Assembly: GCF_000682735.1 (NCBI RefSeq)
Contig: NZ_AWFD01000034.1
Coordinates: forward strand, 124,001-188,000
Reading direction: 5' to 3'
Source: Hyphomonas sp. CY54-11-8
Lineage (GTDB): Bacteria; Pseudomonadota; Alphaproteobacteria; Caulobacterales; Hyphomonadaceae
DNA: 64,000 bases
The position numbers and the translations under genes were made by a program. Under the pieces are notes generated by a model that saw only the letters and a list, made by a program, of their open reading frames with translations, searched no databases and had not been told where the DNA came from. The stretch's first letter is position 1. Every line of letters begins with the position of its first letter. Positions 39,102 to 58,973 of the stretch are shown here, in pieces.

Positions 39102-39102
39102 G

Positions 39103-39579
39103 CTATTCGATCAGAATGAGCGGCTCGCCAAATTCTACGGGCTGGGAATCGGTGACATAAATTGCCTTCACCGTGCCGGCCCGGTCTGCTTCGACTGGAT
39201 TGAAGGTCTTCATGGCCTCGACCAGCATCAGCGTGTCGCCCTTTTTCACCTTGTCACCAATTGAAACGAACGCTTTGGCGCCGGGTTCCGGAGAGAGGTA
39301 AGCGGTGCCCACCATCGGCGATTTGATGGCATTGTCGGGCGTTTCCACGGCAGCTTCAGCAGGGGCTGCAGCAGCGGGAGCAGCCGCTGCAGGCGCGGCT
39401 GCTGTGGCCACGGGCGCCGGAGCGGCAACAGCGGCCTGCACCACGGTTGGTGCGGGTTTACTCACGCGGACCCGCAGGCCCTCATGTTCAACTTCAATTT
39501 CACCAAGATCTGCCTCACGCAGGATGGCGGCGAGTTCCCGGACAAGTCCGGTATCAAGCTTGTTCTTGCCAGTGCTCAT
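39103..39579 (-). CDS. accB: Biotin carboxyl carrier protein of acetyl-CoA carboxylase
   Basis: A 158-residue carrier. The N-terminal third is a short coiled/helical region ([19 protein letters not shown]), the middle is an alanine/proline-rich flexible linker, and the C-terminal biotinyl domain has the target lysine Lys124 in VEAMKTFN. The usual EAMKM is EAMKT here, a common alphaproteobacterial variant. It is transcribed with accC. Confidence 0.97.
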
Positions 39580-42500: not shown

Positions 42501-43388
42501 ATGTGGTCTGCGGTAACACCTCGGTTCCGACGCTTTATAACCAATCTTCAACTATCCGAAGCTCAACGCTTTGATGGGTTATCAAAAGCTCGCAATGTCG
42601 CCCGCAAGCTCAATAGCGAGTATTTTGGGGACCCAGATCTAGGATTGGGCTACTATGTCTATGGGTCATGGGGAAAAGGTACCGCGATTTCTCCTCCTTA
42701 TGACGTCGATATGTATTATCGCGTGCCCATCGAAGAGTTTGAGCGGTTTGACAGATACGCTGGGAACGGACAGTCGGGTTTGTTAGCCAGCGTCAGGGAA
42801 ACTCTTCTCGATCGATATCCGCAAACAAGAATAAGAGGTGATGGTCAGGTTGTTGTAATCGATTTCAATTCCTTGACCATCGAGGTCGCGCCGTGTCTTG
42901 AAAGGCAGAATGGTTCGTTTCTTATACCGAACAGCAATCAAGGCGGAGCCTGGATGGTTGCAGAGCCTCGATCTGAAATCAGTCAGCTCAATTACGTGGA
43001 TTCAATTTCAAATAATAACCTTCGTCCGCTGGTTCAGATGGCGAAACAGTGGAAGCGCCACTGCAATGTTCCTATTAAGTCATTCTACATTGAGTTGCTT
43101 GCGACAGAATATATGCGGAGTTGCGAATGGCGAGAGCAATCGCTTTACTACTATGATTGGATCGTGAGGGACTTTTTCCAATTTCTCGTGAATTCACCTG
43201 AGAAGATTGTTTCTGTTCCCTATACAGAAGAAATTATAAATGTTGGATCTGACTGGCATTCTAGATCGATCACAGCGTGGGAACGGGCTGTGTCGGCTTG
43301 TGAGTTCGAGCGAGAGGATTCTATTTGGTCTGCGGGCGAGTGTTGGCAAAGAATATTTGGTGATAAGATTCCGGAGTACGCAGCTTGA
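42501..43388 (+). CDS. CD-NTase (SMODS-type nucleotidyltransferase) of a CBASS-like system
   Basis: A 295-residue DNA polymerase beta-like nucleotidyltransferase. The catalytic signature is complete: Gly55-Ser56 in YGSWGKGTAI, Asp68 and Asp70 in YDVDMYY, and a third acidic residue, Glu128, in LTIEVAP. This is the pattern of cGAS/DncV-like nucleotidyltransferases, which make cyclic oligonucleotides on phage infection and activate an effector. The downstream SLATT membrane gene overlaps by 4 bp, supporting a signal-effector pair. Regulators such as Cap2/Cap3 or HORMA/TRIP13 are absent, so type I CBASS would be the class. ATG 42501 follows AGGTGGG. The product nucleotide cannot be predicted. Base composition is lower in GC than the flanks. 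Confidence 0.82.
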   Translation: MWSAVTPRFRRFITNLQLSEAQRFDGLSKARNVARKLNSEYFGDPDLGLGYYVYGSWGKGTAISPPYDVDMYYRVPIEEFERFDRYAGNGQSGLLASVRETLLDRYPQTRIRGDGQVVVIDFNSLTIEVAPCLERQNGSFLIPNSNQGGAWMVAEPRSEISQLNYVDSISNNNLRPLVQMAKQWKRHCNVPIKSFYIELLATEYMRSCEWREQSLYYYDWIVRDFFQFLVNSPEKIVSVPYTEEIINVGSDWHSRSITAWERAVSACEFEREDSIWSAGECWQRIFGDKIPEYAA

Positions 43389-43891
43389 CTGACACAGAGA
43401 CGGAAATTTTGAAAGAATGTGAAAGGCAAGAAGAAAATTGCCTTTATACGTTCACGGTACTGATGGTTTGGCTGCGGTCCCTAAGGCGGTGGCGGAGGGT
43501 ATTTATATTTGGGCAAGTTGTTTTTAGCGTGTGTGCTGCCGCATTCGCTGTAGCAGGTCATGCTTTGGCTGCGGGCGCATTTGGTTCAATTGCGGGGTTG
43601 TCGCCAATTGTGTGGGGTTCTTTGCAGCTAGATGGACAGCTCGAAGTGGTCTCGCGTCATGCATCTCTATTTGTTGAGTTGCGTGATCGTTTCAGACGAA
43701 TAAAAAATATCGAGGCGACTAAAGGACTGAAGGTCCTTGAGCGGGAGTTCCAATTCGCTGTCGAGGACTTGGCGGGCGCTAGAAAGTATGGCGTTTCACC
43801 ACCAGAAAAATATTTTGCTATTGCGCAAGAAAAAATTCGACGTGGTGACTATGAGAACTCAATAGACGAATTCCCGCCCGGAGACCGTTGA
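43385..43891 (+). CDS. SLATT domain 2TM effector protein
   Basis: A 168-residue protein with two adjacent hydrophobic helices (about 40-60, VFIFGQVVFSVCAAAFAVAG, and 62-81, AAGAFGSIAGLSPIVWGSL) and a charged helical C-terminal half (FVELRDRFRRIKNIEATKG). This is the layout of SLATT (SMODS- and SLOG-associating 2TM effector) proteins, predicted to disrupt the membrane when activated by a nucleotide signal. The start is a TTG with a GGAG 8 bp upstream that overlaps the CD-NTase stop, so translation is coupled and weak initiation may keep the toxic product low. No toxicity has been shown; this is inference from family. Confidence 0.72.
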   Translation: MTDTETEILKECERQEENCLYTFTVLMVWLRSLRRWRRVFIFGQVVFSVCAAAFAVAGHALAAGAFGSIAGLSPIVWGSLQLDGQLEVVSRHASLFVELRDRFRRIKNIEATKGLKVLEREFQFAVEDLAGARKYGVSPPEKYFAIAQEKIRRGDYENSIDEFPPGDR

Positions 43892-43972
43892 AGCTTTCTA
43901 CTTTCTACTGCAACAAGCACCAATTAAGAGAGGGCGATTGCGCCCACGCCTTTGCGTGACGCGATTTCAGCG

Positions 43973-44554
43973 TCACCCCTTAGCCGGCCGCTCTCCTATC
44001 AGCTTCGCCAATTTGGTCTTTGGATGAGAAGACGAACGCCTTTTTTTGACTTTAAATGCCTGTCCTGAAATTGTTGTGGGCTCATATTCTGAAATCGAAA
44101 AAGCTTCGAAGTTCGCGTTCAAGTTTTGGATAGCTAAAAGTACAGCATCTGGTTCTTGAGTAGTTGCCCCCAATAGCTCTTTACGCGCAGCTTGTGCGAG
44201 TAGACCGGATCTTGTTAGGCCTCGTTCTTTAGCAATCTCATCGATACTTCTTAAAAGACCCGCTTCCATAGTGATATTAGCTCGAACGGTTCGAGCGTCG
44301 AGATCAACAAGTGGAACGATCATGAGAAAAGCGCCGCTTGTTAAATCTGCTCTAATGTCGGGATCGTCATGGATTTCGTCCAAACTGCGCGCTTCCGGAA
44401 GGGCTTGGTCCTCTACCCAGAGCGCCAGAGCTTCGTTAGCTGAAGCCTTAAGTTCTTCCAAAGTGTCGGCAGACGTGATGCAGCCTGGGACGTCTGGAAA
44501 ATACGCACCGTAGGCGCCGTCTTCGGCGTGTACGATTGCTACATAGTGGGCCAT
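43973..44554 (-). CDS. hicB: HicB family antitoxin, extended C-terminus
   Basis: A 193-residue protein. Residues 1-65 are the HicB partial-RNase-H-like domain (VHAEDGAYGAYFPDVPGC; EALALWVEDQ). About residues 85-130 form a ribbon-helix-helix-like DNA-binding part (VRANITMEAGLLRSIDEIAK; GLTRSGLLAQAARKEL). A further lysine-rich tail of about 60 residues is beyond the usual 80-150-residue HicB. It neutralises HicA and probably represses the operon. It lies 35 bp downstream of hicA on the strand opposite to the CBASS-like genes. Confidence 0.85.
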   Translation of the reverse strand: MAHYVAIVHAEDGAYGAYFPDVPGCITSADTLEELKASANEALALWVEDQALPEARSLDEIHDDPDIRADLTSGAFLMIVPLVDLDARTVRANITMEAGLLRSIDEIAKERGLTRSGLLAQAARKELLGATTQEPDAVLLAIQNLNANFEAFSISEYEPTTISGQAFKVKKRRSSSHPKTKLAKLIGERPAKG

Positions 44555-45122: not shown

Positions 45123-45244
45123 CTTTTTCTTTCTGAATTGATTAGGGAATTCCAGAGCAGGGCTGCGCATGTCCCGCCCAGCAGAGCTTCGCGTTGGCCA
45201 ATGTCGCTGGTGTCGATTTGAAGAACGCCCTAGAACGCAAAACG

Positions 45245-45919
45245 ATGCTGCGCCCAAACAAGATCATAAACGGACTGAACCCGCCCGAAACCGGCGCGGA
45301 AGGGGTGTGGTTCTGGCAAACCAACCCTCTGGAAGCGGGGACAAAGGTGCTGTCTGAACCCGAGAACGCGCGTGTTTCGAGGCTTCTTTTGCCTGAGAAA
45401 CGTGACTTGCTCTCCGCCAGTCTCGCGGAACGCCGCCACCTGCTTGCGGGATTGCTCGGCTGTGAACCGGCCGGTCTTCGAATTGCGCATGACGATCAGG
45501 GGAAACCCGGGCTGCCCGACTATCCCGACATCTCTATCAGCTTTTCGGATAGTGAGGATTGGAACGGGCTCGCGTTATTCCGGGATCGCCCTGTGGGCAT
45601 CGATGTGGAGCTTGTCCGGCCTGTCCTCTGGGAGCCGATGCTGAACATGCTGGCGGAAGACGATGAGGCTGACGATATTCGTGCGATACTGGCGGATCGA
45701 GCCGAGTTGGACACTTTCTTCCGTTGCTGGACAGCCAAGGAAGCGATCCTGAAAGCTGCTGGCACAGGCTTGAAAGGCGGTGCGCGCCGCATCCGGTTGC
45801 CTTTCGCCTTTATTTCCAGCGACACGGACCACTTCACCATCGAGCATGATGGACTCAACCTGGCAATCGACACTTTTCCGGAAGACCGACTTATCTTGAG
45901 CCGGGCATTAGCCGTCTAA
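45245..45919 (+). CDS. 4'-phosphopantetheinyl transferase (Sfp/PfaE-like)
   Basis: About 224 residues of the PPTase superfamily. The two signatures are VGIDVELV and FRCWTAKEAILKA, giving the Mg-binding Asp/Glu and the catalytic Glu-Lys. It transfers phosphopantetheine from CoA to acyl carrier domains. Its place next to, and converging on, the Pfa operon (stop codons overlap by 4 bp with pfaC) suggests that it activates the two ACP domains of the PfaA-like protein, like PfaE in marine bacteria. The frame opens at a TTG at 45194; ATG 45245 is preferred, but the start is uncertain. Confidence 0.88.
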   Translation: MLRPNKIINGLNPPETGAEGVWFWQTNPLEAGTKVLSEPENARVSRLLLPEKRDLLSASLAERRHLLAGLLGCEPAGLRIAHDDQGKPGLPDYPDISISFSDSEDWNGLALFRDRPVGIDVELVRPVLWEPMLNMLAEDDEADDIRAILADRAELDTFFRCWTAKEAILKAAGTGLKGGARRIRLPFAFISSDTDHFTIEHDGLNLAIDTFPEDRLILSRALAV

Positions 45920-48900
45920 CCCAGATCTGTCAGCGATACGCTCATCGGCCCCACCTCGTAGACACGAAGGCCGTCGCGCCACAGGCTGCCCCGCGCGGTG
46001 ATCAGAATATCCTCACCGCGATCCTCGATCTTCAGGATCTCCATCACGCTCGTTACAGTCTTCCGCTCAGGCGTCACCTGTCCGCGATAGCTCCATTTCA
46101 TCGGAGCATTTGGGGCAAGCGTGGTCAGGTGCGGCTGGGTCATGCCCTTGTGGAGACCCTTCTTCCAGACAAGCTGTGTCAGCGCCTGGATCAATGCGTC
46201 CAGCCCGAGGGATCCTGGCTGAACAGGGTCCTGATAAAAGTGCGCCTTGAAATACCAAGCATACGGGTCGACGTGCTGTTGCGCTCGGATCAGCCCGAGC
46301 CCTGCCTCTCCGCCATCCGGATCGCAGAAATCGATCTCGTCGATCATTTGCATTCTGCCCAAGGCGCGCGGTTCCTGCATGGAAATCTGCATTGAAGCCG
46401 GCCGCAGGTCGAACGCCTGGGTAAAGTGAGGCTTCGCTGGAAGCCCTGCCTGTCGGACGAGAGAGGAGGGCGGGAAGAATCCGAATTGAGTTTTCAGATC
46501 CAGCACCTGCCTTCCGTCACCCGTGACGACCTCGACATCGAAGGAGACGAGTGTCATCGGTCCGACTTTGGCAATATTCGTTAGAGTACTGCGGATTTTC
46601 AAAATGCCGTCATTCCGGCCAACTTCCATGTGCAGGAAGCCATCACCTTCAAGGTTTCGGAAGCGAAGCGTGCCCACAAGTGCGAAGCCTGAATGACTGG
46701 CCAGCCAGCCGCACGGCTGAAGCGCGATTTCGCAGAGAACTGCAAACGGCATGGTGCCATTCACATTGTCGTCAAAATACCATGCATCTGCAGGAATGTC
46801 GTATTCCGCTGTCATCGTCGCGCCGAGCGTTTCCTCGGCCGGACGCGTCGTAACTGACGTCACGCGGGATATGAAATGATACGGCGGTTGAGGAAGGCGC
46901 GGAACATTCCCCTGATCGTCATAACGCCGGTACATGTCTCCGAATGCGGCAGAAGGCGCGCCATTGGCGCAATCCAGCAACGCGGCGTGATCCCCTCGGC
47001 TTTCGCGCTCTGGTCCGATCCGCAAAGGCTTGGCATCTATTCTCGGCGCCGGCCAGTTGCGGCGAAGCCGGATTCCAAAGCGCGGGCAATGGAACACCTT
47101 GTGGCCGTCGCACCGGGCAAGCAGGGAGGCGTATATTTCCGGCGTCTCCCCATCGATGATTTCGTCGATGAAGACTTCATAGGTAACCTGATGATCCTTA
47201 TCCGGGATCACTTGACCGCGGCATACGAATTTCGCTGTGTGTTCGGGAATGGGTTCGAAGACGTATCCATCCCGCTCGACAGTCAGGCCCACGGCAGCGG
47301 CATAGAATTCCAGCGCCTGCACGGCGGCTTCCGCCATGAGTGTGCCGGGCATGCAGGGGTCGTTGTGAAAGTGTCCGTCATAGAACCATGTGGACGCTGG
47401 CGTTGCCGCGCGTGCCCGAAGGTAGCCGCGTTTCCAAGGCCCACCTTGCGGATCGAATGCAATGACATCATCGAACAGCGATAGCTTTCCGCCGGGAATA
47501 TGTGGTGGATTGGAATGGGCGGCACAGAGCTCAAAACCCTCGCCGAAACAAGCAAAGGCATCACCGTTCCGGAACGCGTTTATATCATCCTCAGAAAACG
47601 TCCGCTTGTTGCTGACACGCTGTGGTTCGAAGCCGGCAGGGTCTGAAGTCGGGGGGGCATTTTTGGCGGCATCCCAGATGACGCCTTTGCTGTTGGCGAG
47701 TTCCTCGTCGGTAAAGAAGCCGGCTTGCCCGTTGCGGACAGAGAACGCCAAACGGTCGTTCGCTCTGCAATCATACTGGAAGAAGAACATCCGTACACCG
47801 CCCAATTCAGCGTGCCCGGTAATTTCGATCTGGAAGCCCAACGTATCGTCGACCGACGGGAGCCCCCCCTCGTGGAAGGTGATCTCGCACCCCAGCAATC
47901 GGTAGACCCGTTCGTTTTTGTTGCGCAAGTCCGCACCCATCCAGCCGATCAGCGTCAGATCAGCCTGACCGCATTCGATCAGCGGACCCGGGCGGATGCG
48001 ACCGTCATGGATGAAGTCCGTATGATTGGAGAGATCTGTTTCGGTCCAGATCACACCGCCGGCTTCTTCGGTTGGGGCGGCATCGATACCGGTGACCCGG
48101 TCAACAAGAAGAAGTGGTGGTGCCGGAAGGCGTACCTGCCGGTCGAAGCGGTCCTGGGCTGCGAAGGCCGGTCCGAAGAAAGCTGACATCTTGCCTCGTG
48201 AGGAAGCCTCAACCTCTCCTCGGTCGCGGGTCGGACCAGACGGCGAACGGCGGTCGAGCGCGGTCGTCCCGCTCACCACTTTCTGCGGAGGCTCAGCACA
48301 TTTTCCGGGAACGGGCTCCGGAGGTCGTCTCGGCATCGTCACCTGCTGGCACGGTATAGTCATGGCATAGTCCGGTATGCGCAGCTTGGGCGCAGGCGGC
48401 AGTCCGCACTGGGCAGGGCGTGGTCGGTTTTTGACAATCTTGGGCATGGGGTAAGGCACCGGTCTTGTAGCGTTCCATTGGCCGGCTGGGGCGGCCTCGT
48501 TTTTTTGGGCGGCGGCGAGCGTTTCGAGCAGGGGGTTCAGGTCGATTTCCCGTCCATCGGCATAAAGAAATGCCGCTGCGTTCGCGATCTGGCCAAGGTC
48601 CGAGGTTTCGATCCTGTCAGTGGCGATGGCCTTGAAAGGCTTATCTTTCAATGTGTTGGAGAGGCTGGTCGTCAACGTATCGCGTGGGCCCAGTTCGAGG
48701 AAAGTCCGCACACCATCCGCCCAAGCCTGACGCACCGTTTTAGGAAAATCCACCGTATCGACTGCCTGCCGGGTCAGCATGTCCGCGACAACGTCCGTTT
48801 CAGGCTCGTAGGCCCCGTGAATTGCATTGGCGTACAGCCGGACATTAGACCCCCGATGTACCGGCCGCGTATGCAGGCGCCGCCAGGTATCCGCGAATGG

Positions 48901-51900
48901 CCGCATGGCCTTGGCATGGACAATCAGGTGCTGGTTCATCTTCACGCCAGCGCGCCTGCCGAACTCTTCACACAGCGCACGGCAAGCCTCGGCAGGTCCG
49001 CCGATCATACAGTCCTCATCCGTGTAGATGATCGTGATTTCCACGCCGGGATGACGTGAGAGTGCGGCCTTTACGTCAGCAACAGGCGCTTGCAGGCGCC
49101 AGTTGGTCCAGTCGGATGGGACGTTTGGCCCCCACGCCTGTTTCGCCGTTTCGAATTCACCGCCGATGTGCCGTTCGTACATTGCAGCTTCTGATATCTC
49201 GTCCAGAAGCGCACCGGGATCCTTCCAATAGCCAAAAGAAAACAGAGCATTGGATTCCCCGAGTGAAAGACCGATAGCAGCATCGGGCTTCACCTTGAGG
49301 ATGTCCAGCCAGAGGATCGCATGTGCTTGGCTGACCAGCGTACCGGCGCAAAGCTGCTCGAATTCAGAAAGGCTGGCACGTGACAGCAGGGCGGCAATCT
49401 CTTCTGCCCGGGACAATTTTGAAAGTTTCTTCCGGACCTCCGGGAACGCCATCAGAAGGCGCCTCGCCATCCGGGGGTAGACTGCAGCCGATCCGGTAAA
49501 CATGAAGGCCAACTCGCCTTCCGGTTGGCCTTCGCCATAATAAATGCCGTCGCCTGACGGCACCCGATCTTTCGAGAGTTGCCGCGCAACACACGCACGC
49601 AGGTTTTGGATGGCATCTGCGCCTGCAGCCAACAAGGCGATCCGGCATCTGCCCCGGCCGCCTTGGCGTCCCGATTTCACGTTCTCCGCGAGCTTCTGCT
49701 TGCTGGCTGCTGCAGTGAAGAAGATGGACGGCGTTGGCCTTAGTGGATCCGGCATCACCAGAGGCGGCGCCAATTCAAGTGAAATCGATGTGCCAACATT
49801 CGCTGCTCCAGCCGGTACATTTATCCGGCTTTTTTTTCGTGGCCAGGACAACTTCGGAACAGCGCCGTCTGGTGTCAGGTGATGACTGTGGGCATTCAGC
49901 AGCAGTTCGATAGCTGCCTGGACTAAAGCATCAGCATCCGGAGCGGTTCCGTAAACATCGGAAAACAGGTTCTCGACGTGCCTGCTTTTCGAGTTTTTCC
50001 ATTCCACTGACGCAACCGATCCAAGTATCGGATCGCCAGCGGCCTCAGCATCCTCACGACGTTTGAGAACCAGTGCAGCTGCCGCGTCGCCTGGGTTTTT
50101 TGTTTGACCCAACTCGCGAAGGGCCTTGGCCCGAACCGGTTCCGACGCAAAATCAGCTGCTGCGACAATGGCCATCGACAGGCGCTCAGAAGCCAAGGCA
50201 TCAACCGCGAGATCCAGCGCGGCAGGACCGCTCGCGGCACCAGCGGATACCGAGTATCCCATGCCCTGCATGTCGCGCCCGAACGTGATCCGGTTTGCGG
50301 TCATGTTCGCCATTGCACCGAGCACCATCGCGGCATCGAGTTTCGGAGCGATATCTTCTGGTGATTGCGAGGAGGAAGAAGAAATGCGCTCCCTGAGAGC
50401 CCAGCGCGCAGAATCTGCCGCGCAAGCCATACCGGCAAAGACTCCCGTCTCGTGACTTTCAACAGGGGAAACCCTGTCCAGAGCTTCACTCACCGTAGAC
50501 AGGATCGCCAATTGTTGCGGCTCGGCCTGTGTCAGGTCTTTGGGAGGTGTTCTGGCATTCGCAGCATTGGCCCCGATTTCTTCCAGTTGCGCCGGAGGAG
50601 CGATTGGCCAGTTCATCAACCGTCTCAACACCGCATCTGTCGTCCGGTCCGAGCCGGCCATAACGGCCGCGGCGCAGACGACAATTTCAGGAGTATGTGA
50701 TTGTTTGAAACTGGTGTTGCGGCCTCTGCGGACGATCGGCTGGTGCTGCTCCATTATCAGGTGCGCATTGTTGCCGCCAAATCCGAAGTTACTGATCGCA
50801 GCGCGCCTTGCTCCATGATCATTTCTCCAAGGTTCCTGCTTCGCTTGTACGATGAGGTTTGAATGTGCGAGAGACTCCAGTACGTCGCCATCGATCGGTG
50901 TCGGAGGCAGGCTTTCCCGAGACATCGCACCCGTAAGCTTCAGGATGCTTGCAAGACCGGCGACGGTAATGAGGTGACCGGTATTCGCTTTGAGAGATCC
51001 GACCGGTAATTGCTCCACAGCGCCATAGACAGACTTTGCCGATGATACCTCCACGCCATCTCCAACGGGTGTGCCGGTCGCGTGGCATTCGAGGTATTGG
51101 ATCGTGAGCGGATCTATTTCGTTGCGCTTCAACGCATCACGCATCGCATCGGCTTGCCCTTCGGCAGACGGTGCCAGCAGACCTTTCCGGCGGCCGTCAT
51201 TCGACAGGCCGCTTGCGCGAATTAATCCGTAAACTTTTTCCCCTGGTTCAACGTCACTCAGTCGCTTCAGGACGATTGCAGCGGCGCCTTCCGAAGGCAC
51301 TAGGCCGTCGGCGCCCTTCACAAACGGCCGGGAACGGCCGGTGGGACTCAGTGCATTTAATGCGTCGAAACCAATGTGAAGGATCAGATTGTCAGCGGCA
51401 TTGACTGCCGCAACGAGCGCGCAGTCTATTTGTCTCGATTGCAGCTTCCGGCACGCAATATCAACAGCATAGAGGGAAGATGCACATGCCGCATCGAGTG
51501 AAAGACAAGGTCCGGAGGCGCCTAGTGCTTCGGCAATCAATCTTGATGGAAGTGCAGAATTCAGTGTCAGATGAGCAGGTGGTGTAGGTTCATCGCGCCA
51601 CAATCTCGAGGCGAATTCGACATGCCCGGCCGAAGGATAAGACAGGTTCGCGGCAAACACGCCTATGGCGGAAGGGTTAACTCTGGGATTGGTGGCATCT
51701 TCCCAAGCATCAAACGCTGCTTGCAGGGACCAGCTGCAGACAGGATCTAGTTCCCCGACGCGAACGGATTTCAGGCGAAATCGGTCTGGTGCGAAGAGCG
51801 CATCAAAACCCCTTACGCGTCCGGACACGAACGACCGGGAGCTGGCTATGTCGCTGGGGAGCCCAAGTTCGACAGGAGAGACAGGGGCGTAAACGACCCG

Positions 51901-51996
51901 TCGCTCCATCACAATATCAGTAAGCTCCTCAGGCGTGTGTGCGCCCGGAAGAACACATCCCTGTCCAACGATAGCGACAGGTTCGAAATAGGTCAT
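45916..51996 (-). CDS. PfaC-like polyketide/PUFA synthase: KS-CLF-AT-DH-DH
   Basis: A giant protein of about 2025 residues, the second core subunit of a Pfa-type iterative lipid synthase. Domains in order: ketosynthase (about 1-420) with the triad Cys171 (DAACASS), His305 (ECHATGTP) and His341 (NTGHL); a chain-length-factor KS-like domain (about 435-745) in which the cysteine is replaced by Ala587 (SAGAAS); an acyltransferase (about 820-1130) with Ser910 in GLSLGE; then four hotdog folds, of which two carry FabA-type histidines, His1541 (HFHNDPCMPG) and His1918 (HFYQDPVQPG). The layout resembles myxobacterial Pfa3 without its terminal acyltransferase. ATG 51996 overlaps the KR stop by 4 bp and follows GGGG; an in-frame ATG at 52008 is the alternative. 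The product is unknown. Confidence 0.9.
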   Translation of the reverse strand: MTYFEPVAIVGQGCVLPGAHTPEELTDIVMERRVVYAPVSPVELGLPSDIASSRSFVSGRVRGFDALFAPDRFRLKSVRVGELDPVCSWSLQAAFDAWEDATNPRVNPSAIGVFAANLSYPSAGHVEFASRLWRDEPTPPAHLTLNSALPSRLIAEALGASGPCLSLDAACASSLYAVDIACRKLQSRQIDCALVAAVNAADNLILHIGFDALNALSPTGRSRPFVKGADGLVPSEGAAAIVLKRLSDVEPGEKVYGLIRASGLSNDGRRKGLLAPSAEGQADAMRDALKRNEIDPLTIQYLECHATGTPVGDGVEVSSAKSVYGAVEQLPVGSLKANTGHLITVAGLASILKLTGAMSRESLPPTPIDGDVLESLAHSNLIVQAKQEPWRNDHGARRAAISNFGFGGNNAHLIMEQHQPIVRRGRNTSFKQSHTPEIVVCAAAVMAGSDRTTDAVLRRLMNWPIAPPAQLEEIGANAANARTPPKDLTQAEPQQLAILSTVSEALDRVSPVESHETGVFAGMACAADSARWALRERISSSSSQSPEDIAPKLDAAMVLGAMANMTANRITFGRDMQGMGYSVSAGAASGPAALDLAVDALASERLSMAIVAAADFASEPVRAKALRELGQTKNPGDAAAALVLKRREDAEAAGDPILGSVASVEWKNSKSRHVENLFSDVYGTAPDADALVQAAIELLLNAHSHHLTPDGAVPKLSWPRKKSRINVPAGAANVGTSISLELAPPLVMPDPLRPTPSIFFTAAASKQKLAENVKSGRQGGRGRCRIALLAAGADAIQNLRACVARQLSKDRVPSGDGIYYGEGQPEGELAFMFTGSAAVYPRMARRLLMAFPEVRKKLSKLSRAEEIAALLSRASLSEFEQLCAGTLVSQAHAILWLDILKVKPDAAIGLSLGESNALFSFGYWKDPGALLDEISEAAMYERHIGGEFETAKQAWGPNVPSDWTNWRLQAPVADVKAALSRHPGVEITIIYTDEDCMIGGPAEACRALCEEFGRRAGVKMNQHLIVHAKAMRPFADTWRRLHTRPVHRGSNVRLYANAIHGAYEPETDVVADMLTRQAVDTVDFPKTVRQAWADGVRTFLELGPRDTLTTSLSNTLKDKPFKAIATDRIETSDLGQIANAAAFLYADGREIDLNPLLETLAAAQKNEAAPAGQWNATRPVPYPMPKIVKNRPRPAQCGLPPAPKLRIPDYAMTIPCQQVTMPRRPPEPVPGKCAEPPQKVVSGTTALDRRSPSGPTRDRGEVEASSRGKMSAFFGPAFAAQDRFDRQVRLPAPPLLLVDRVTGIDAAPTEEAGGVIWTETDLSNHTDFIHDGRIRPGPLIECGQADLTLIGWMGADLRNKNERVYRLLGCEITFHEGGLPSVDDTLGFQIEITGHAELGGVRMFFFQYDCRANDRLAFSVRNGQAGFFTDEELANSKGVIWDAAKNAPPTSDPAGFEPQRVSNKRTFSEDDINAFRNGDAFACFGEGFELCAAHSNPPHIPGGKLSLFDDVIAFDPQGGPWKRGYLRARAATPASTWFYDGHFHNDPCMPGTLMAEAAVQALEFYAAAVGLTVERDGYVFEPIPEHTAKFVCRGQVIPDKDHQVTYEVFIDEIIDGETPEIYASLLARCDGHKVFHCPRFGIRLRRNWPAPRIDAKPLRIGPERESRGDHAALLDCANGAPSAAFGDMYRRYDDQGNVPRLPQPPYHFISRVTSVTTRPAEETLGATMTAEYDIPADAWYFDDNVNGTMPFAVLCEIALQPCGWLASHSGFALVGTLRFRNLEGDGFLHMEVGRNDGILKIRSTLTNIAKVGPMTLVSFDVEVVTGDGRQVLDLKTQFGFFPPSSLVRQAGLPAKPHFTQAFDLRPASMQISMQEPRALGRMQMIDEIDFCDPDGGEAGLGLIRAQQHVDPYAWYFKAHFYQDPVQPGSLGLDALIQALTQLVWKKGLHKGMTQPHLTTLAPNAPMKWSYRGQVTPERKTVTSVMEILKIEDRGEDILITARGSLWRDGLRVYEVGPMSVSLTDLG

Positions 51997-53369
51997 GCAC
52001 TGCCCCATTCGTCACCAACGACGAACCGAACCTGATCGTGAGAAGAATTCAGAAGTTGATCTGCGAAAATACGGGCGCCTTCTTGCTTTGAGATTAGGCC
52101 TATGCCCCGCTCGGTAAACATTCGCGCCAGGGATTCATCGACCATTCCACCTTGCCAGGGGCCCCAGCAAAAGGCCTTCACTTGTGTATCCGGTATTTTC
52201 CCGGCGAGGTGAACGGCCACATTGTTCAGCCACTCATTGGCTGCGGCATAGTTAGATTGCCCTTCGTTTCCAAATACAGCGGATGCTGAAGAAAAAAGAC
52301 CAATATAACGAAGGGCAGAAGGCTTGATACAAGACAAGATCGTTTCAAGTCCGGTGACTTTGGGCGAAAAAACCTTCTCAAAATTCTTCAGACCGAGCGC
52401 TTCGGCGAAACCATCTGACAGAACACCTGCGCCATGAACCAGGCCTGTGACCGGGCCTTCTTCATTTATGAGTCTGGAAAGGGTGGTACGAAGGCTTGCC
52501 TGATCCCCAATGTCTGCCTGTACGTAACGGGCTTTGGCCCCGCCAGACTCGATGGCTTTCAGGGTAGAGACGATTTCCGCCCCGGCCAGAAGTATGCGGG
52601 CGAAGCGGTCAATCTCTACCGGCGTCTTGGGAGCATCGGCACGACCAGAATTCTTTGCCAGGGCACCACGCAGCGCTTTGAGATCGGTTTCTCGCTCAAG
52701 CCAGGCAGGCCAGGCAACGAGATCGGACCGACCGAGCAGAATGAAACTACCCCCTGTTCTTTTTGCGAGTTCAATCGCGCAATCGGCAGTCACACCCCGG
52801 CCGCCACCGGTTATCAGCCAGACTGGTGATTCAGGAACAACCGATGCGGTTGACGGCGGCCGGACAATTTCGCCGGGAACATCTTGATAAATTCCGTCGT
52901 TACTCAGTGTATAGGTACCTTCAGACAGGATCAGAGACATCGCAATGCGAGATGCTTCATCCTGGATATCTCCAGAAATTTTGAGAGACGAGGCACTTAC
53001 GCGTATTTCGGGGCGTTCAATCCGAAGCGAACGACAAAGGCCTGAAACACCTCCGATCGCTGACAAGGAGCGGGCTGACGTGCGGTCCAGCGCAACGACA
53101 TGCACCCCTTCGTGCGCCGACAGGATCGCCTTGAGAACGTCATGGTGTCTTTTTGCCTGTCGTTCCTCGGTCAACCCTTCCGTAAGAAGACACGTCCTTG
53201 CGCTTTGAGGCTTGCTGACGATGCTGGCCTCTCCACCGCGACTTTCAATCTCTTGTTTGATCGCTTCGGCAAAGGCTGGAGCAGCATTTGTTATCTCGAT
53301 CGCGTCGGACTCGTCGAACGATACAGTTTGGTCATATGAAGCCACTTGTACAGTCTCGAGTACCCGCAC
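51993..53369 (-). CDS. Stand-alone ketoreductase of the Pfa cluster
   Basis: A 458-residue protein of the polyketide-synthase KR type. Residues 1-180 form a degenerate structural subdomain. The catalytic half has the NADPH site WLITGGGRGVT (184-194), VHGAGVLSDG, and the active site SSASAVFGNEGQSNYAAANE with Tyr374 and Asn378. In marine and myxobacterial synthases this domain is part of PfaA; here it is a separate gene. It starts at a GTG, 71 bp after the PfaA-like gene, behind a long hairpin, and overlaps the PfaC-like gene by 4 bp. It would reduce beta-ketoacyl-ACP intermediates. Confidence 0.88.
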   Translation of the reverse strand: MRVLETVQVASYDQTVSFDESDAIEITNAAPAFAEAIKQEIESRGGEASIVSKPQSARTCLLTEGLTEERQAKRHHDVLKAILSAHEGVHVVALDRTSARSLSAIGGVSGLCRSLRIERPEIRVSASSLKISGDIQDEASRIAMSLILSEGTYTLSNDGIYQDVPGEIVRPPSTASVVPESPVWLITGGGRGVTADCAIELAKRTGGSFILLGRSDLVAWPAWLERETDLKALRGALAKNSGRADAPKTPVEIDRFARILLAGAEIVSTLKAIESGGAKARYVQADIGDQASLRTTLSRLINEEGPVTGLVHGAGVLSDGFAEALGLKNFEKVFSPKVTGLETILSCIKPSALRYIGLFSSASAVFGNEGQSNYAAANEWLNNVAVHLAGKIPDTQVKAFCWGPWQGGMVDESLARMFTERGIGLISKQEGARIFADQLLNSSHDQVRFVVGDEWGSA

Positions 53370-53408
53370 GGCGTTCAGATATGGAGCATTCCCTGCGTCT
53401 GTCGCGCC

Positions 53409-53440
53409 GGGACGGACCGCCTCAGGAGGCGTACCGTCCC
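53409..53440 (-). promoter_or_regulatory. Hairpin between pfaA-like and KR genes
   Basis: A 32-base imperfect inverted repeat (7-bp outer stem GGGACGG / CCGTCCC, a 2-base internal mismatch, then CGCCTC / GAGGCG closing) starts directly at the pfaA-like stop codon. No T-run follows, so it is more likely an RNA-stability or attenuation element than a terminator. Confidence 0.45.
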
Positions 53441-56400
53441 CTAGGCAAAAAAATCAGCGATCGCCCTGATCGTGCGGAGTTCAACGAGGACTTCCGGGTC
53501 CACTTCCGGGAGGTTTGGATGCTGTTCACGAAGGGCCGAAAGGATTTCAACCTGTTTGATGGAATCGACGCCCAACTCACCCTCAAGATCCATGTCGTCT
53601 TCCAGCATATCACTCGGATATCCTGTTTTGTCAGCAATCAGCTCCCGGACGACATCCGGTGTGATTGAGCCATTTAACTTACCAGGGGTAGACGCGGCCG
53701 GTGCAGAAGAAACTTCAACGGTGATGGGAGCGATTTTCTTGACCGCCGGAGCGGGCGAGACACCATTTGATCCTGTCACCATGTCGGCAATTGCTGCGAT
53801 CGTGCGCAATTCCACGAGGCGTTCTGGGTCTATCTCAGGAAGTTCCGGCAGCTGCTCGCGGATCGTCGACAGGATTTCGACCTGTTTGATGGAGTCGACG
53901 CCCAGCTCTCCCTCCAGATCCATATCCACATCCAGCATGTCTTCTGGGTAACCGGTTTTATCTGCAATAATGCCACGTACCAGGGCGACGGCATCCACAC
54001 CTTGAGTGCTGATAGCGCGAGCAGCAGTTTCCGTGACAGGTTGGACTGGTGGGGTGGTTGCCGTTGATGCGGCTGGTTGAGCGTGTGCTGAGCGTCTTGC
54101 GGGTGTTTTTGCCGGACCAGGTACAGCAGGCGCGTCTGCAGTCGCAGGCTCGGGATGTCGTGGTGCTGGGGCGACCGGCGCGATTGGAGCCGGAGCGGGT
54201 TGAGGTAGTGCTTTTGCCGGTTCAGGTAATGATACCGCGGCGCCATTCATGACTTGCGATACAGTATTCAAATACGCGGCATGAGCCGAAGAGGCCATGC
54301 TCATGAACTCCGAATGACGGCGAGATACCTCCATCAACACCCGTTCAACTGGGGTTTCGCCCCCGGACCCGGAAGGGTCATAGGATGGCATGGAAGGAAA
54401 CGACGAGTAGGATGAATCCGGCATGGCAGGTTCCTGGGGATTAGAGGCAGAAGAGGATTGAGTTGGGCCTGCCTGAGGAAGGCGATCGGCCATCGTACGG
54501 TTATTTTGCGGGGTAGAAGCTGGTGTGCGATCGGGATTCGGCGCAGCTTTGCCCGCCGCACCGTCCGGTGGCGGATAAGGTTTGCCGAAATTCGCCCCGG
54601 AAATCATGACAGCGTGCTTGGGCGGAGCCGGGCGAGGAGGTTCCGCAGGCAAGTCTTCGAACAGGGTTGCAAAATCGACGGGAATGCCCGCAACGCTGAT
54701 TGCGCCAAGTACTGACAGAAATTGTGTAACACCATTCATTCGCTTGTTGTCGAGCGAATAGGATTTGTGCGGACGGTCACGAAGGACGTCATCAACCAGC
54801 CCGGTGACGACCGACCCTGGGCCTATCTCAATGAACACGCGCGCACCGTCGGCGTACATCCGCTCGACCAGTTCCCTGAACCGGACAGGAGAGGCGAGTT
54901 GGCTTGCGACTTCCACGGGCATCTGTGTGCCGGTGCAGGCGTAAGGCTCTGCTGTTGCATTAGCATATACCGGCAGAGAAGGTTTGCGCAGGCGTAGTTT
55001 CCTGAGTGCCGTTTCAAATGGTTCAACAGCAGACGCAACAATCTTCGAATGAAAAGCGGTAGCGACGGGAAGAAGGCGGGCCTTCAGTCCTTCCTGTGTA
55101 CATAGCTCCAGAGCATCGTTCACAACTTTGGTGGGACCGGACAGCACGACCTGGCTCGGCCCATTGTCGTTGGCGAGTACCAGATCTGGAGCGAATTCGC
55201 CCAGGATGTGACCAATATCCTCTGATGCGGCCTGAACGGCCATCATGGATCCGGAACTGGACTTTGCGGCTTCGGCCATCAAGGCACCACGATCGACAGA
55301 CGCTGAAAGAGCACCGGAAGCGTTCATAGCGCCTGCATAGTGCAACGCCATGATCTCACCGAAGCTGTGTCCGGCCGCCATCTCACCCTGGATCCCGGCT
55401 TGCGACAGCAAGGCGAGGTGCGACAGGGTTACGGTAGCGATTGCAGGCTGGGCATGCTCCATGGCTTTCAGGTGATCAGTTTGATCGCCATGTTCGACCT
55501 GATCGAATGCTGCTGGCGGAAATGCCAGTTTATGGAGTTTCAGCTCACCCGCACGTTTGTGACTTGCGGCTTCATCCCAGACTGCTCTTGCGGCCGGGAA
55601 TGCCATGGCCAGATCAGCGCCCATACCCACATATTGGCTGCCTTGCCCTGAAAACATGAAGGCGACTTTTTCATCTGCCGGCTGATCGAGAGATACATGG
55701 CAACCCATTTTTAGGGGGCGGTTACCAATTTCATTGCTATTCAGGGCATCGATGACGCTGTTGACTTTAACGGTGAGGTCTTCCGGAGATTGTGCCACAA
55801 TGGCCGCGCGAGCGGGTGCCGTGGCATCAAATGCCTCCTGGCTTTCTGATGCTCGGAAAGCGAATTCCTTTTCTGTGAGACCGGTCTTGAACGCCGCAAT
55901 TCTGGAAGAGAGTGTCGCGGGAGACTCTGCCGAAAACAGGAAGAGCTCTGCGGGCAATGATCTCCAAGGTCTGACTGCATTAGGGCCGGTATATTCTTCC
56001 AAAGTGACGTGGAAGTTGCTGCCCCCGAAACCGAACGAACTCACAGAGGCTCTGCGAGGCCGTTTTTTTGGAGAAATCCAGGGGCGGGCCTCGGTGTTCA
56101 GATAAAAAACCGGGCTGTTCTTGATGGCGTCTGCCGGTTCTTCCACTTTGATGGTCGGTGGCAATGTCTTCCGGCTTAAAGCATGCGTGACTTTAATCAG
56201 GCTGGCAGAACCGGCCGCTGCTTTTGTATGGCCGATCTGTGCCTTGACTGAACCAATGGCGCACCAGGGTTCGTCCTGGTTGTGCTCTCCAAAAACGAGA
56301 TGGAGCCCTTCGATTTCGGCCTTGTCGCCAGCTTTTGTACCAGTACCATGAGCTTCTACCAGGTCTACTGTAGACGGATCATATCCAGCCTGATCGTATG

Positions 56401-57376
56401 CGCGCTTCAGCGCTCGGGCTTGGCCGTGTGGAACCGGGCTGTAGATTGCGGTTCCTTTGCCATCTGAAGCCCCGCCAAGTCCTCTGATGACGGCATAGAT
56501 CTTGTTACCATCCCGCTCGGCGTCATCTAGTCGGCGCAAAGCGAGCATGCCAATACCTTCGCCCAGCATGGTGCCATCCGCTCGCGTGGAAAATGGCCGG
56601 CAGTCTCCGGACGGCGACAAGGCCGGTGTCTTGGAGAAGCACATATACATCAGAATGTCGTTCAGGGCGTCCACGCCGCCTGTCAGAACTGTGTCGCTGT
56701 CTCCGGACCTCAGCTCATGCAGGGCGATTTGTAGTGCCGAGAGGCTGGAGGCGCAGGCGGCATCGGTTACGTAATTGCTGCCGGTCAGATCAAATCGGTT
56801 TGCGATCCTTCCGGCGATAACGTTGCCAAGCAAACCGGGGAAGGTGGCTTCCTGCCAATCGACATAGTGATCTTCAATCCGCCGGGTGATGTCCTGAACC
56901 TGGCTTTCTGGCAGCCCGGCCTGACGCATCGCATCCACCCATGCAGGACGCTGAAGCCGACCCGCCATGTGGGCGGTCATCTCCGTTGCCGATGCGACGC
57001 CGAGAATGATGCTCGTGCGAGATTTATCGATCATTCCGCTGGAGTCTTGTTCAATGTCTTCCAGCGTCATTTGTGCGGCGATCAGAGCCAGAAGCTGAGC
57101 TGTGTCGGTGCCCTCCATCGCTTTGGGGGGAATGCCGAAATAGAGCGGATCAAAAGCGAGAGGATTGATGAACCCGCCACGACGTCCGTACGTCCGGTCT
57201 TTCGTTTTGGGATCTTCATCATAGTAGTCTTCAATCAGCCAATGACTTGGTGGTACATCGCTGATCAGGTCCCGGCCTTCAAACAGGTCACGCCAGAAAC
57301 CCGTAACATCACCCCGTCCCGGATAGACGGCCCCCAGGCCGACGATCGCGACAGGAGCGGCGGTTTGTTTGGCCAT
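53441..57376 (-). CDS. PfaA-like polyketide/PUFA synthase: KS-AT-ACP-ACP
   Basis: About 1311 residues. The N-terminal ketosynthase has Cys208 (DAACASS), His343 (EAHGTGT) and His383 (IGHTK). The acyltransferase has Ser671 in GHSFGE and His776 in AFHS, as in malonyl/acyl transferases. A proline/alanine/serine-rich linker (about 910-1125) leads to two nearly identical ACPs with phosphopantetheine serines 1162 and 1272 (both in GELGVDSIKQVEIL). EPA/DHA-type PfaA usually has four to nine ACPs plus a KR, so this is a reduced version. The start is ATG 57376, one base into the pfaD stop (TGATG), with GGAGG 7 bp upstream; the frame also has a GTG one codon earlier. Confidence 0.92.
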   Translation of the reverse strand: MAKQTAAPVAIVGLGAVYPGRGDVTGFWRDLFEGRDLISDVPPSHWLIEDYYDEDPKTKDRTYGRRGGFINPLAFDPLYFGIPPKAMEGTDTAQLLALIAAQMTLEDIEQDSSGMIDKSRTSIILGVASATEMTAHMAGRLQRPAWVDAMRQAGLPESQVQDITRRIEDHYVDWQEATFPGLLGNVIAGRIANRFDLTGSNYVTDAACASSLSALQIALHELRSGDSDTVLTGGVDALNDILMYMCFSKTPALSPSGDCRPFSTRADGTMLGEGIGMLALRRLDDAERDGNKIYAVIRGLGGASDGKGTAIYSPVPHGQARALKRAYDQAGYDPSTVDLVEAHGTGTKAGDKAEIEGLHLVFGEHNQDEPWCAIGSVKAQIGHTKAAAGSASLIKVTHALSRKTLPPTIKVEEPADAIKNSPVFYLNTEARPWISPKKRPRRASVSSFGFGGSNFHVTLEEYTGPNAVRPWRSLPAELFLFSAESPATLSSRIAAFKTGLTEKEFAFRASESQEAFDATAPARAAIVAQSPEDLTVKVNSVIDALNSNEIGNRPLKMGCHVSLDQPADEKVAFMFSGQGSQYVGMGADLAMAFPAARAVWDEAASHKRAGELKLHKLAFPPAAFDQVEHGDQTDHLKAMEHAQPAIATVTLSHLALLSQAGIQGEMAAGHSFGEIMALHYAGAMNASGALSASVDRGALMAEAAKSSSGSMMAVQAASEDIGHILGEFAPDLVLANDNGPSQVVLSGPTKVVNDALELCTQEGLKARLLPVATAFHSKIVASAVEPFETALRKLRLRKPSLPVYANATAEPYACTGTQMPVEVASQLASPVRFRELVERMYADGARVFIEIGPGSVVTGLVDDVLRDRPHKSYSLDNKRMNGVTQFLSVLGAISVAGIPVDFATLFEDLPAEPPRPAPPKHAVMISGANFGKPYPPPDGAAGKAAPNPDRTPASTPQNNRTMADRLPQAGPTQSSSASNPQEPAMPDSSYSSFPSMPSYDPSGSGGETPVERVLMEVSRRHSEFMSMASSAHAAYLNTVSQVMNGAAVSLPEPAKALPQPAPAPIAPVAPAPRHPEPATADAPAVPGPAKTPARRSAHAQPAASTATTPPVQPVTETAARAISTQGVDAVALVRGIIADKTGYPEDMLDVDMDLEGELGVDSIKQVEILSTIREQLPELPEIDPERLVELRTIAAIADMVTGSNGVSPAPAVKKIAPITVEVSSAPAASTPGKLNGSITPDVVRELIADKTGYPSDMLEDDMDLEGELGVDSIKQVEILSALREQHPNLPEVDPEVLVELRTIRAIADFFA

Positions 57377-58920
57377 CACGCGGCCTCCGTTTCAGCGAAT
57401 TGATGCGGGGTGTAATCGAAGGCCGTTGGAGGCACAGCGACACCGACGGCGCGCAGTTGAGAAGCTCTAGTTATGCGGGCTGCGCCTTCCATGAGGTTCC
57501 AGGCAATCTGGCGGACCGTCCGGTTGGATATGTCCTCCAGGAAAGTGCCCGCGGCCCATTCGTTAAACGCCCCCTGCGCGGGGCCGCACCAGATCTGGTA
57601 GTCAGCTAGATGTTCAGGATCGCCGTCACGGGCGAATTGTGCGCCGGAGAACAGGTAGCGCCTTGCGACGAGAGCGAGACGCTTGTTGCCGTCGGATTCC
57701 GCCCGTTCAGCTTCTTTCGGGTTCACGTCCCTGATGTAGCTGCGTGTCGCCTGCCAGGCGGCTTCGAACGGCTCGCCAAGAATATCTTCGATCCAAACCT
57801 GGTCTTTTGGATCCAGCGTTTCGAACGACGCGCCGGAACGATAGAGCTGAAACAGTCTCTTTCCGCGCATCGCGAAAAGGGTACCGCGCTTCAGAACCTG
57901 AACTTCCACGCCTTGCTCGAACATGTCCGCAGCCGGCGCCATCGCAACGTCGGCCGGCCCGGCTTTGGCCAGCAATTGGCGACCGGGCAGGGACAGGCCG
58001 GATTCTACGGCTGCCTGATTGATGGAACCCGTCAGCACATAGGCCGCACCCATGCCGAATGCTGCCGCCACAGCGTGCGGTGTGGCGATGCCGCCAGCCA
58101 GACCGATCCGGATGGCGTTGGGGTCAATTCCGAATTTTGAGGCAACCCGATCCCGGGCTGCGGATATCGAGGAAAAGAGGGGGGCTGCTGACCTCCGGTC
58201 TGTATGCCCCCCGGAATCCGCCTCTGCTGTGATTTCTGCTGCGACGGGAACTTGTCTGGCGAGTTCAGCCTGCGCTGAGGAAATCGCACCAGAATCGACC
58301 AGGGAGTTCAGAATGGCATCCGGTGCAGGCGACAGGAACTGCTCGGCGACTTCTGCGCGGGACACTTTCGCGAATACATGGTTCGTCCGGATGATCTGAC
58401 CATCGGGACGTCGTGCAAGCCCGAGCGCCGTATATCGCACGATTTCGGGAGATAGGCGCATGTAGGCCGACGCGGAAACGCGCCTGACTTTCTCATGAAG
58501 AAACAGGTCAACGACGGCGGCCTCATAACCAGGCTGCTGGGGTGTGTGAATCAGGTTGGCGCCCCAGCAGATCTGATCAGAAGACAATTCCGATTTGATC
58601 TGGAGCAGTCCTAGCTCGATTTCATCAAGAGCAAGTCCGGCGCTACCGTAGAATCCCAAGCAGCCGGCGCGCACGGCTTCGACAACCATACGTGGCGTGG
58701 CGATACCGCGTGCCATTTCCCCAACGACATAGTTGAATCTGCTCCCGTGGGTCGCAGAAAAGGCTCGGTCACCCAGCCATTCGGGGTAAATTGGTGGGAG
58801 TATCGCTGCGCCGGTTGAGGTGCCTTCGGTGATGGCAACGGCTTTCACCTCATCCGCGGAAAGCTCTAGGCTGACCGGGAGGCGCGGGTTCTCAATGATC
58901 GTGGTGCACACGTTCATCAT
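57376..58920 (-). CDS. pfaD: PfaD-like enoyl reductase (FMN-dependent, NPD/2-nitropropane dioxygenase fold)
   Basis: About 514 residues, the trans-acting enoyl reductase of Pfa synthases. PfaD family hallmarks seen are YVVGEMARGIATPRMV, LGFYGSAGL, WGANLIHTP, RRVSASAYM, EADSGGHTD and AAYVLTGSINQAAVESG, the FMN-binding TIM-barrel parts. It is the first gene of the reverse-strand operon and overlaps the PfaA-like gene by one base. The start is ATG 58920 (the next codon is also ATG) after an AAGAAGTG element; the frame opens at a GTG at 58944. A near-consensus promoter lies at 58974-59003. Confidence 0.93.
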   Translation of the reverse strand: MMNVCTTIIENPRLPVSLELSADEVKAVAITEGTSTGAAILPPIYPEWLGDRAFSATHGSRFNYVVGEMARGIATPRMVVEAVRAGCLGFYGSAGLALDEIELGLLQIKSELSSDQICWGANLIHTPQQPGYEAAVVDLFLHEKVRRVSASAYMRLSPEIVRYTALGLARRPDGQIIRTNHVFAKVSRAEVAEQFLSPAPDAILNSLVDSGAISSAQAELARQVPVAAEITAEADSGGHTDRRSAAPLFSSISAARDRVASKFGIDPNAIRIGLAGGIATPHAVAAAFGMGAAYVLTGSINQAAVESGLSLPGRQLLAKAGPADVAMAPAADMFEQGVEVQVLKRGTLFAMRGKRLFQLYRSGASFETLDPKDQVWIEDILGEPFEAAWQATRSYIRDVNPKEAERAESDGNKRLALVARRYLFSGAQFARDGDPEHLADYQIWCGPAQGAFNEWAAGTFLEDISNRTVRQIAWNLMEGAARITRASQLRAVGVAVPPTAFDYTPHQFAETEAA

Positions 58921-58973
58921 CCAGGACACTTCTTGCCATCTCACTGCACAATTCTACGCAGTCGCTATTTAAA

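Follow-up and report, generated by a model that had tools for sequence, protein, structure and literature searches.

A 64,000-nucleotide stretch of the Hyphomonas sp. CY54-11-8 genome (hereafter the window; the genome comprises 3.9 Mb in 38 contigs) carries a Pfa-type gene cluster that is real and complete, occurs across the genus and represents a synthase of known kind; its gene layout has been seen before, but one standard dehydratase part is missing. From its domain content we consider it probable, though far from certain, that the cluster encodes a Pfa-type synthase working iteratively to build long acyl chains, which are probably polyunsaturated. A more specific proposal, which we advance tentatively, is that it represents a branch of PUFA synthases that has dropped the PKS-type dehydratase (DH_PKS) and may split saturation and cis-double-bond formation between two FabA-type dehydratases alone, as a genus-wide core trait of Hyphomonas that would yield an undescribed long-chain polyunsaturated lipid.

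Organization and domain content of the cluster

Four of the five genes lie on the minus strand, beginning with pfaD, which encodes an enoyl reductase (ER; 57376..58920, with an ATG at 58920 in a frame that is open from a GTG at 58944). This is followed by pfaA1 (53441..57379), encoding a KS-MAT-ACP-ACP protein without a KR as identified by Pfam, NCBIfam and domain HMMs; by pfaA2 (51993..53369), encoding a free ketoreductase (KR) with structural and catalytic KR subdomains and no DH_PKS; and by pfaBC (45916..52008), for which Pfam, NCBIfam, domain HMMs and active-site columns give the order KS-CLF-AT-pDH1-DH1-pDH2-DH2. A PfaE-like PPTase gene (45245..45919; PF01648, 45.7 bits; the TTG-opened frame starts at 45194) lies on the plus strand, converging on pfaBC and overlapping its end by 4 bases. 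An earlier note on this DNA had placed five genes at these positions and read them as ER, KS-AT-ACP-ACP, free KR, KS-CLF-AT-DH-DH and a converging PPTase, all of which is borne out by coordinates and domain matches; two details absent from it are the lack of a dehydratase after the KR and the presence of CBASS-like and HicB-like genes beyond the PPTase.

PfaD scored 530.5 bits against TIGR02814 (cut-off 449.25), placing it in the PfaD family, and matched the PfaD structure PDB 4yx6 with a phmmer E value of 1.5e-115. Within pfaA1, the KS spans residues 8-460 and the MAT residues 571-876, with a Pro/Ala-rich linker listed between the MAT and the two ACPs (1129-1206 and 1239-1312), the latter corresponding to two PP-binding stretches among the profile matches. 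The KR of pfaA2 matched PF08659 at 110 bits, and ordinary ketoreductases were among the matches listed for its model in structure searches. Two FabA stretches were found in pfaBC (236 bits for the protein), together with an AT that matched weakly, at 26 bits in Pfam and 74.7 bits against the PfaB family model TIGR02816, both below cut-off, and that keeps its Ser and His motifs (GLSLGE and H). The motifs of KS1, the MAT and both ACPs are present in the translation, and active-site columns of pfaBC show C-H-H in KS2, no Cys in the CLF, GHF..DP..PG with Glu in DH1 and HF..DP..PG with Asp in DH2. When the PPTase was compared by eye with PUFA-type motifs (hRxhLS, x(G/D)xP and (F/S)NxSH), QGKP fitted P1a, while SRLLLP and FSDSE came only near P0 and P1b. 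Judged from the translations, the catalytic motifs are intact among those inspected, and all parts of a predicted elongation cycle are present.

Beyond the PPTase the next conserved gene encodes a 2OG-dioxygenase; in between lie a SMODS CBASS-like nucleotidyltransferase gene (42501-43388; below cut-off for the NCBIfam CBASS model), a small companion frame and, at 43973-44554, a HicB-like gene (42501-44554 for the group). At locus L010 the dioxygenase gene starts approximately 340 bases after the PPTase, and the CBASS-like, companion and HicB-like genes are all unmatched. Some 6 kb beyond the PPTase lie accC and accB (37710-39579), which relate to malonyl-CoA supply.

Conservation and phylogenetic placement

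In all 23 close loci (L009-L031), genes for ER, for a KS-MAT protein with two ACPs and for a KR with its own frame are consecutive, followed by pfaBC in 22 of them (the contig of L029 ends before it), with broken frames in L017 and L030; recurrence of the same gene order in these loci indicates that the arrangement is not due to chance. A convergent PPTase occupies the same place in 15 of 22 relatives and was not found there in the other seven, among which the contig of L026 has only 877 bases left. Of 42 genomes assigned to the genus Hyphomonas, a name inferred for this sample from the nearest records (Hyphomonas jannaschiana VP2 and other Hyphomonas), 41 have PfaD; the sole miss, G421, is 93% complete. 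At broader levels, 59 of 105 family genomes carry a PfaD match, which in one of them amounts to 65 residues at the edge of a contig, and these 59 come from 3 of the 10 family genera. Among sampled genomes, a match is present in 13 of 385 from the class and in 24 of 398 from the phylum. Three matches in each of the latter two samples are weak (G052, G027 and G361 at 20-25 bits in the class; G685, G561 and G361 at 20-21 bits in the phylum) and were set aside as presumably other flavoproteins. PfaD comes close to being a core trait of the genus and is rare outside the family, and from its near-universal presence in the genus we infer that the synthase is part of the ordinary lipid repertoire.

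Identity of the window KS to its relatives reaches 94% (Hyphomonas sp. NAT16). The full set of genes upstream of the cluster was recovered in 4 of 25 loci searched (L009, L010, L012 and L024) and partially in L011, where the contig starts; since these genes are shared with few loci and the cassette with more, the cassette is conserved beyond its neighbourhood. In the same four loci, which are the closest relatives, the KR and PPTase diverge faster (56-59% and 48-53% identity, respectively) than PfaD, pfaA1 and pfaBC (77-82%). Spread of the cluster to Acidobacteria was considered and rejected, as the KS sequences of L015, L029 and L031, from contigs titled Acidobacteria or Sulfopaludibacter, are nested among Hyphomonas rows with end branches of 0-0.02; these contigs are probably misbinned.

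Phylogenetic trees of KS sequences were built from 42 rows and from 37, the smaller leaving out FabF, L032 and the misbinned contigs L015, L029 and L031. In both, the Hyphomonadaceae join G335, Azospirillum lipoferum, G365, G432, Embleya and G522 (98/93 and 96/91, respectively), apart from Persicobacter and from the EPA/DHA-type rows. The latter were anchored by architecture and by two PDB matches: the PfaD of G722 aligns to 4yx6 (omega-3 synthase PfaD; 1042 bits), and the KS-CLF of G564 to 6riw ('ORF10', which we take to be Moritella PfaC; 1176 bits). As resolved by these trees, the window KS belongs with clusters that begin with ER and is separate from EPA/DHA-type and Type-D-like clusters. 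In the 42-row tree the window clade joins the EPA/DHA-type clade, leaving Beijerinckia (Type P), L032 and FabF outside, on a joining branch (92/70) that is not strong. The ER tree (27 rows) gave the same split as the KS tree (99/97); the KR tree (26 rows) did not recover the whole clade, separating the Hyphomonadaceae and G335 (95/87) from Azospirillum, G365, G432, Embleya and G522 (98/91). Only nine Hyphomonadaceae loci were included in the ER and KR trees.

Constraining the Hyphomonadaceae and the split-KR cluster of Persicobacter to one KS clade was rejected (log-likelihood loss 134, AU p 1e-71); the equivalent clade with split-KR G432 was not (AU p 0.18). Over 35 of the 37 rows, the KS tree requires at least three changes of the KR split; G028 and Streptantibioticus, in which the KR lies in a second frame after a possible sequencing break, were omitted from this count, and G754, with a PfaA likewise broken, is absent from the KS trees. 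Given that the window KS clade is apart from EPA/DHA-type and Type-D-like clusters, the trees indicate that the KR split arose more than once. We accordingly rejected the KR split by itself as the mark of a new subfamily: it changes repeatedly on the tree, and Types D and H are already split.

These results bear on the proposal, made in the earlier note from an unusual distribution of domains, of a distinct subfamily of secondary-lipid synthase. Placement of the KS outside the EPA/DHA-type clade speaks for distinctness; the gene split is not unusual, being shared by Types D and H and by Aureispira marina, so that contrast with Types A and B does not show novelty. Passages of PMC3098273 show that Types D and H have been in print since 2011. 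A tight placement of the KS within a characterised clade with the same split, which would have spoken against the proposal, was not seen, the comparison here resting on Persicobacter as a Type-D-like stand-in (AU p 1e-71).

Loss of the PKS-type dehydratase and the predicted product

The KR protein, pfaA2, ends 3 residues after its KR match, with no dehydratase following. Post-KR stretches are similarly short (2-19 residues) in the window, in 22 of 23 relatives (L029 is cut), and in G715, Azospirillum, G335, G365 and G432, and measure 277-361 residues in 12 clusters that include EPA- and DHA-type ones (Embleya, G522, S. globosus, G722, G564, R. opacus, G582, L032, G754, G028, Streptantibioticus and Persicobacter). 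The Type P cluster of Beijerinckia indica also lacks DH_PKS, with 13 residues after the KR. Presence of DH_PKS was scored by post-KR length, with a Pfam check for G722, whose stretch corresponds to PKS_DH_N and PS-DH, and a check by eye for Persicobacter. No PS-DH match was found anywhere in the window genome, in a search whose control was positive in B. subtilis only. On the KS tree, Embleya and G522, outermost in the window clade, keep the long stretch, and the 26 clade rows that lack it are set apart together by one branch (94/95, not starred). At least two changes of this trait are required on the tree, the other one falling at Beijerinckia. As scored in this way, the inner part of the KS clade, including the window cluster, is without DH_PKS, a loss among ER-first clusters for which no earlier description was found in the titles, abstracts and passages covered.

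In prokaryotic PUFA synthases, as summarized in passages of a review (PMC9702510), a DH_PKS dehydration is followed by ER reduction, and one by DH_FabA results in a cis double bond. With an ER present and DH_PKS absent, saturation would have to route through a FabA-type domain, DH1 or DH2. Residue differences are observed in both: the DH1 loop reads DP..PG in the Hyphomonadaceae and their clade (including G522, which has the long stretch), with AG replacing PG in EPA/DHA-type DH1, and at a position where the DH2 of other aligned rows carries Glu, that of the Hyphomonadaceae carries Asp. These differences might reflect a new division of labour. In the proposed cycle, the PPTase would arm both ACPs, the MAT would load malonyl, elongation would be shared by the PfaA1 KS and the KS-CLF pair, and the 3-keto group would be reduced by the free KR. 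Every dehydration would fall to the two FabA-type dehydratases: in one branch the product would be isomerised to a cis double bond, and in the other it would pass to PfaD to be saturated, such that DH1 or DH2 would have taken over the saturating branch, which starts at DH_PKS in characterised PUFA synthases. The chain would be ended by the PfaB-like AT, in keeping with the role of PfaB as a terminal acyltransferase given in the abstract of PMC12895367.

A polyunsaturated chain is favoured by the complete cycle, the FabA-type pair and the PfaB-like AT. FabA-type domains need not isomerise, and the chain could thus be saturated or mono-unsaturated. Also counted against polyunsaturation are the presence of only two ACPs and the absence of DH_PKS in Beijerinckia, whose type makes saturated chains; in addition, the titles, abstract starts and passages covered hold no report of polyunsaturated acids made by Hyphomonas. 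An unlikely, though credible, alternative is that the acyl chain is very long and saturated, hydroxylated or keto-bearing and serves a special envelope lipid, like the chains made by Type F (heterocyst glycolipid) and Type P (phenolic lipid) synthases. Beyond the shared lack of DH_PKS in Beijerinckia, this would be consistent with H. jannaschiana, whose strain VP2 carries the cluster (L009), being cited in passages of PMC3368421 as without phospholipids, through the title of a reference quoted there, and as having unusual lipids. However, the cluster has two FabA-type dehydratases with their catalytic residues, whereas Type F has no DH domains; the Beijerinckia KS falls outside the window clade; and Pfam searches found no glycosyltransferase or type III PKS in 16 flanking frames. 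The same 16 frames contain no NRPS or further PKS by Pfam, and the flanks are confined to the closest relatives, in contrast to the more widely conserved cassette. Both points argue against the product being the acyl tail of a specialised metabolite, or of an unusual glycolipid or aminolipid, in place of an ordinary membrane fatty acid. Even though PUFA-synthase-like enzymes that feed hybrid metabolites are known (abstract of PMC13291983), we regard this as somewhat less likely again.

Two further roles are far less probable. A role in place of FabB, which is missing from primary fatty acid synthesis, would fit the finding that FabB exceeds its cut-off in 20 of the 105 family genomes, none of them among the 59 with PfaD, as well as the growth of P. 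profundum suppressors without mono-unsaturated acids that is supported by a Pfa synthase (passages of PMC8174602). Loss of FabB does not require the cluster, however, since 26 of the 105 family genomes have neither FabB nor PfaD; moreover, the two traits both follow genera and are not independent, and FabF can replace FabB in P. profundum and Shewanella (same source). This role was rejected as very improbable. We give still less weight to a hydrocarbon product, an option raised in the earlier note, here as a precursor of a long-chain polyunsaturated hydrocarbon formed through head-to-head condensation by OleABCD. Model NF006720, which presumably covers OleA, had no match over cut-off in the window genome, and PF08541 gave three matches, two of them over cut-off and assigned to the KAS III proteins FabH (428 bits) and PRK07515, the third falling below. 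The absence of an OleA-type protein over cut-off in the genome weakens this option and makes an OleA-derived hydrocarbon unlikely, despite an earlier survey in which 44 of 80 genomes had both Pfa and ole genes (passages of PMC3098273).

With respect to primary fatty acid synthesis itself, at L099 (G000:C1 near 106251) fabI follows fabA directly with no fabB between; FabZ is over cut-off in 0 of 42 genus genomes and in 9 of 14 control genomes; and PF07977 matches in the window genome are confined to FabA and the two pfaBC domains. Primary fatty acid synthesis thus looks reduced in the genus.

Returning to the polyunsaturated reading, the choice of a PUFA synthase between saturating and keeping a cis double bond is now explained by two dehydratase types with separate jobs. 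If the reading is correct, a compact synthase with one dehydratase type, five genes and two ACPs would put this two-dehydratase model to the test and might offer a small production system, and an overlooked lipid would be predicted across a whole genus of marine alphaproteobacteria.

Comparison with known synthase types

A genus-directed literature search, mostly of titles and abstract starts, returned no description of the cluster in Hyphomonas, a prior account of which the earlier note had allowed for. The genus is absent from two membership tables of PMC3098273; the data set of PMC10902248 includes a Hyphomonas MAG and the hglE-KS cluster class, and its passages do not say which MAG carries hglE-KS; in passages of PMC8984609 and PMC12614181 Hyphomonas is mentioned in other contexts. 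Shulse and Allen (2011) define 20 types of Pfa-type secondary lipid synthases (passages of PMC3098273). Such synthases have at least one KS, ACP and KR, usually with tandem ACPs, and the window cluster has a KS, two ACPs and a KR; the proximal KS of such synthases also groups with those of validated Pfa synthases, and here the window clade joins the EPA/DHA-type clade, on the branch (92/70) that is not strong.

Type A and B EPA/DHA synthases (Shewanella, Moritella) have the same enzyme activities, and their Shewanella-like representative G722 has a PfaD 44% identical to that of the window. However, the Type A/B-like clusters G722, G582 and G564 carry KR and DH_PKS in PfaA, encode the AT as a protein of its own, contain five to seven ACPs, end with ER and have a KS of another clade, whereas the window has a free KR ending without DH_PKS, an AT within pfaBC, and a score against TIGR02813 (995.6 bits) just below the cut-off of 1010.1. 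Two FabA-type DHs set the cluster apart from Type F (heterocyst glycolipid) synthases, which are described as lacking DH domains in passages of PMC3098273, and it differs from Type P (phenolic lipid) clusters in KS clade and in having no type III PKS in the 16 flanking frames.

Closer in layout is Type D (Psychroflexus torquis, Ulvibacter), given in passages of PMC3098273 as pfaA1 KS-AT-ACP5, pfaA2 KR and pfaBC KS-CLF-AT-DH2, making arachidonic acid and EPA in Bacteroidota; the characterised Aureispira marina arachidonic acid synthase, in which the KR stands alone and pfaC includes the AT, has been put in this type (a passage of PMC4882568). Here the gene split is the same, with a free KR and with AT and two DHs fused to KS-CLF, but Type D has five ACPs in print against two in the window. 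The Type-D-like cluster of Persicobacter is also unlike the window in its 289 residues after the KR, ER last, six ACPs and KS grouping with EPA/DHA-type rows. Type H, compared through the published text, shares a split pfaA and fused pfaBC and has one alphaproteobacterial member; passages of PMC3098273 list Agrobacterium vitis S4 and Saccharopolyspora erythraea, with the product unknown there. The window cluster may be a plain Type H.

By KS phylogeny, the nearest clusters are those of Azospirillum, G335, G365 and G432, for which we know of no product. The cluster on plasmid AZO_p1 of Azospirillum lipoferum 4B (L036) resembles that of the window in ER first, two ACPs, KS-CLF-AT-DH-DH, no DH_PKS and the same KS clade, but has its KR still fused to KS-MAT-ACP2. 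G432, from the same phylum and another class, has the order ER, KS-MAT-ACP2, KR and KS-CLF-AT-DH-DH, also without DH_PKS, but pairs with G365 in the KS tree.
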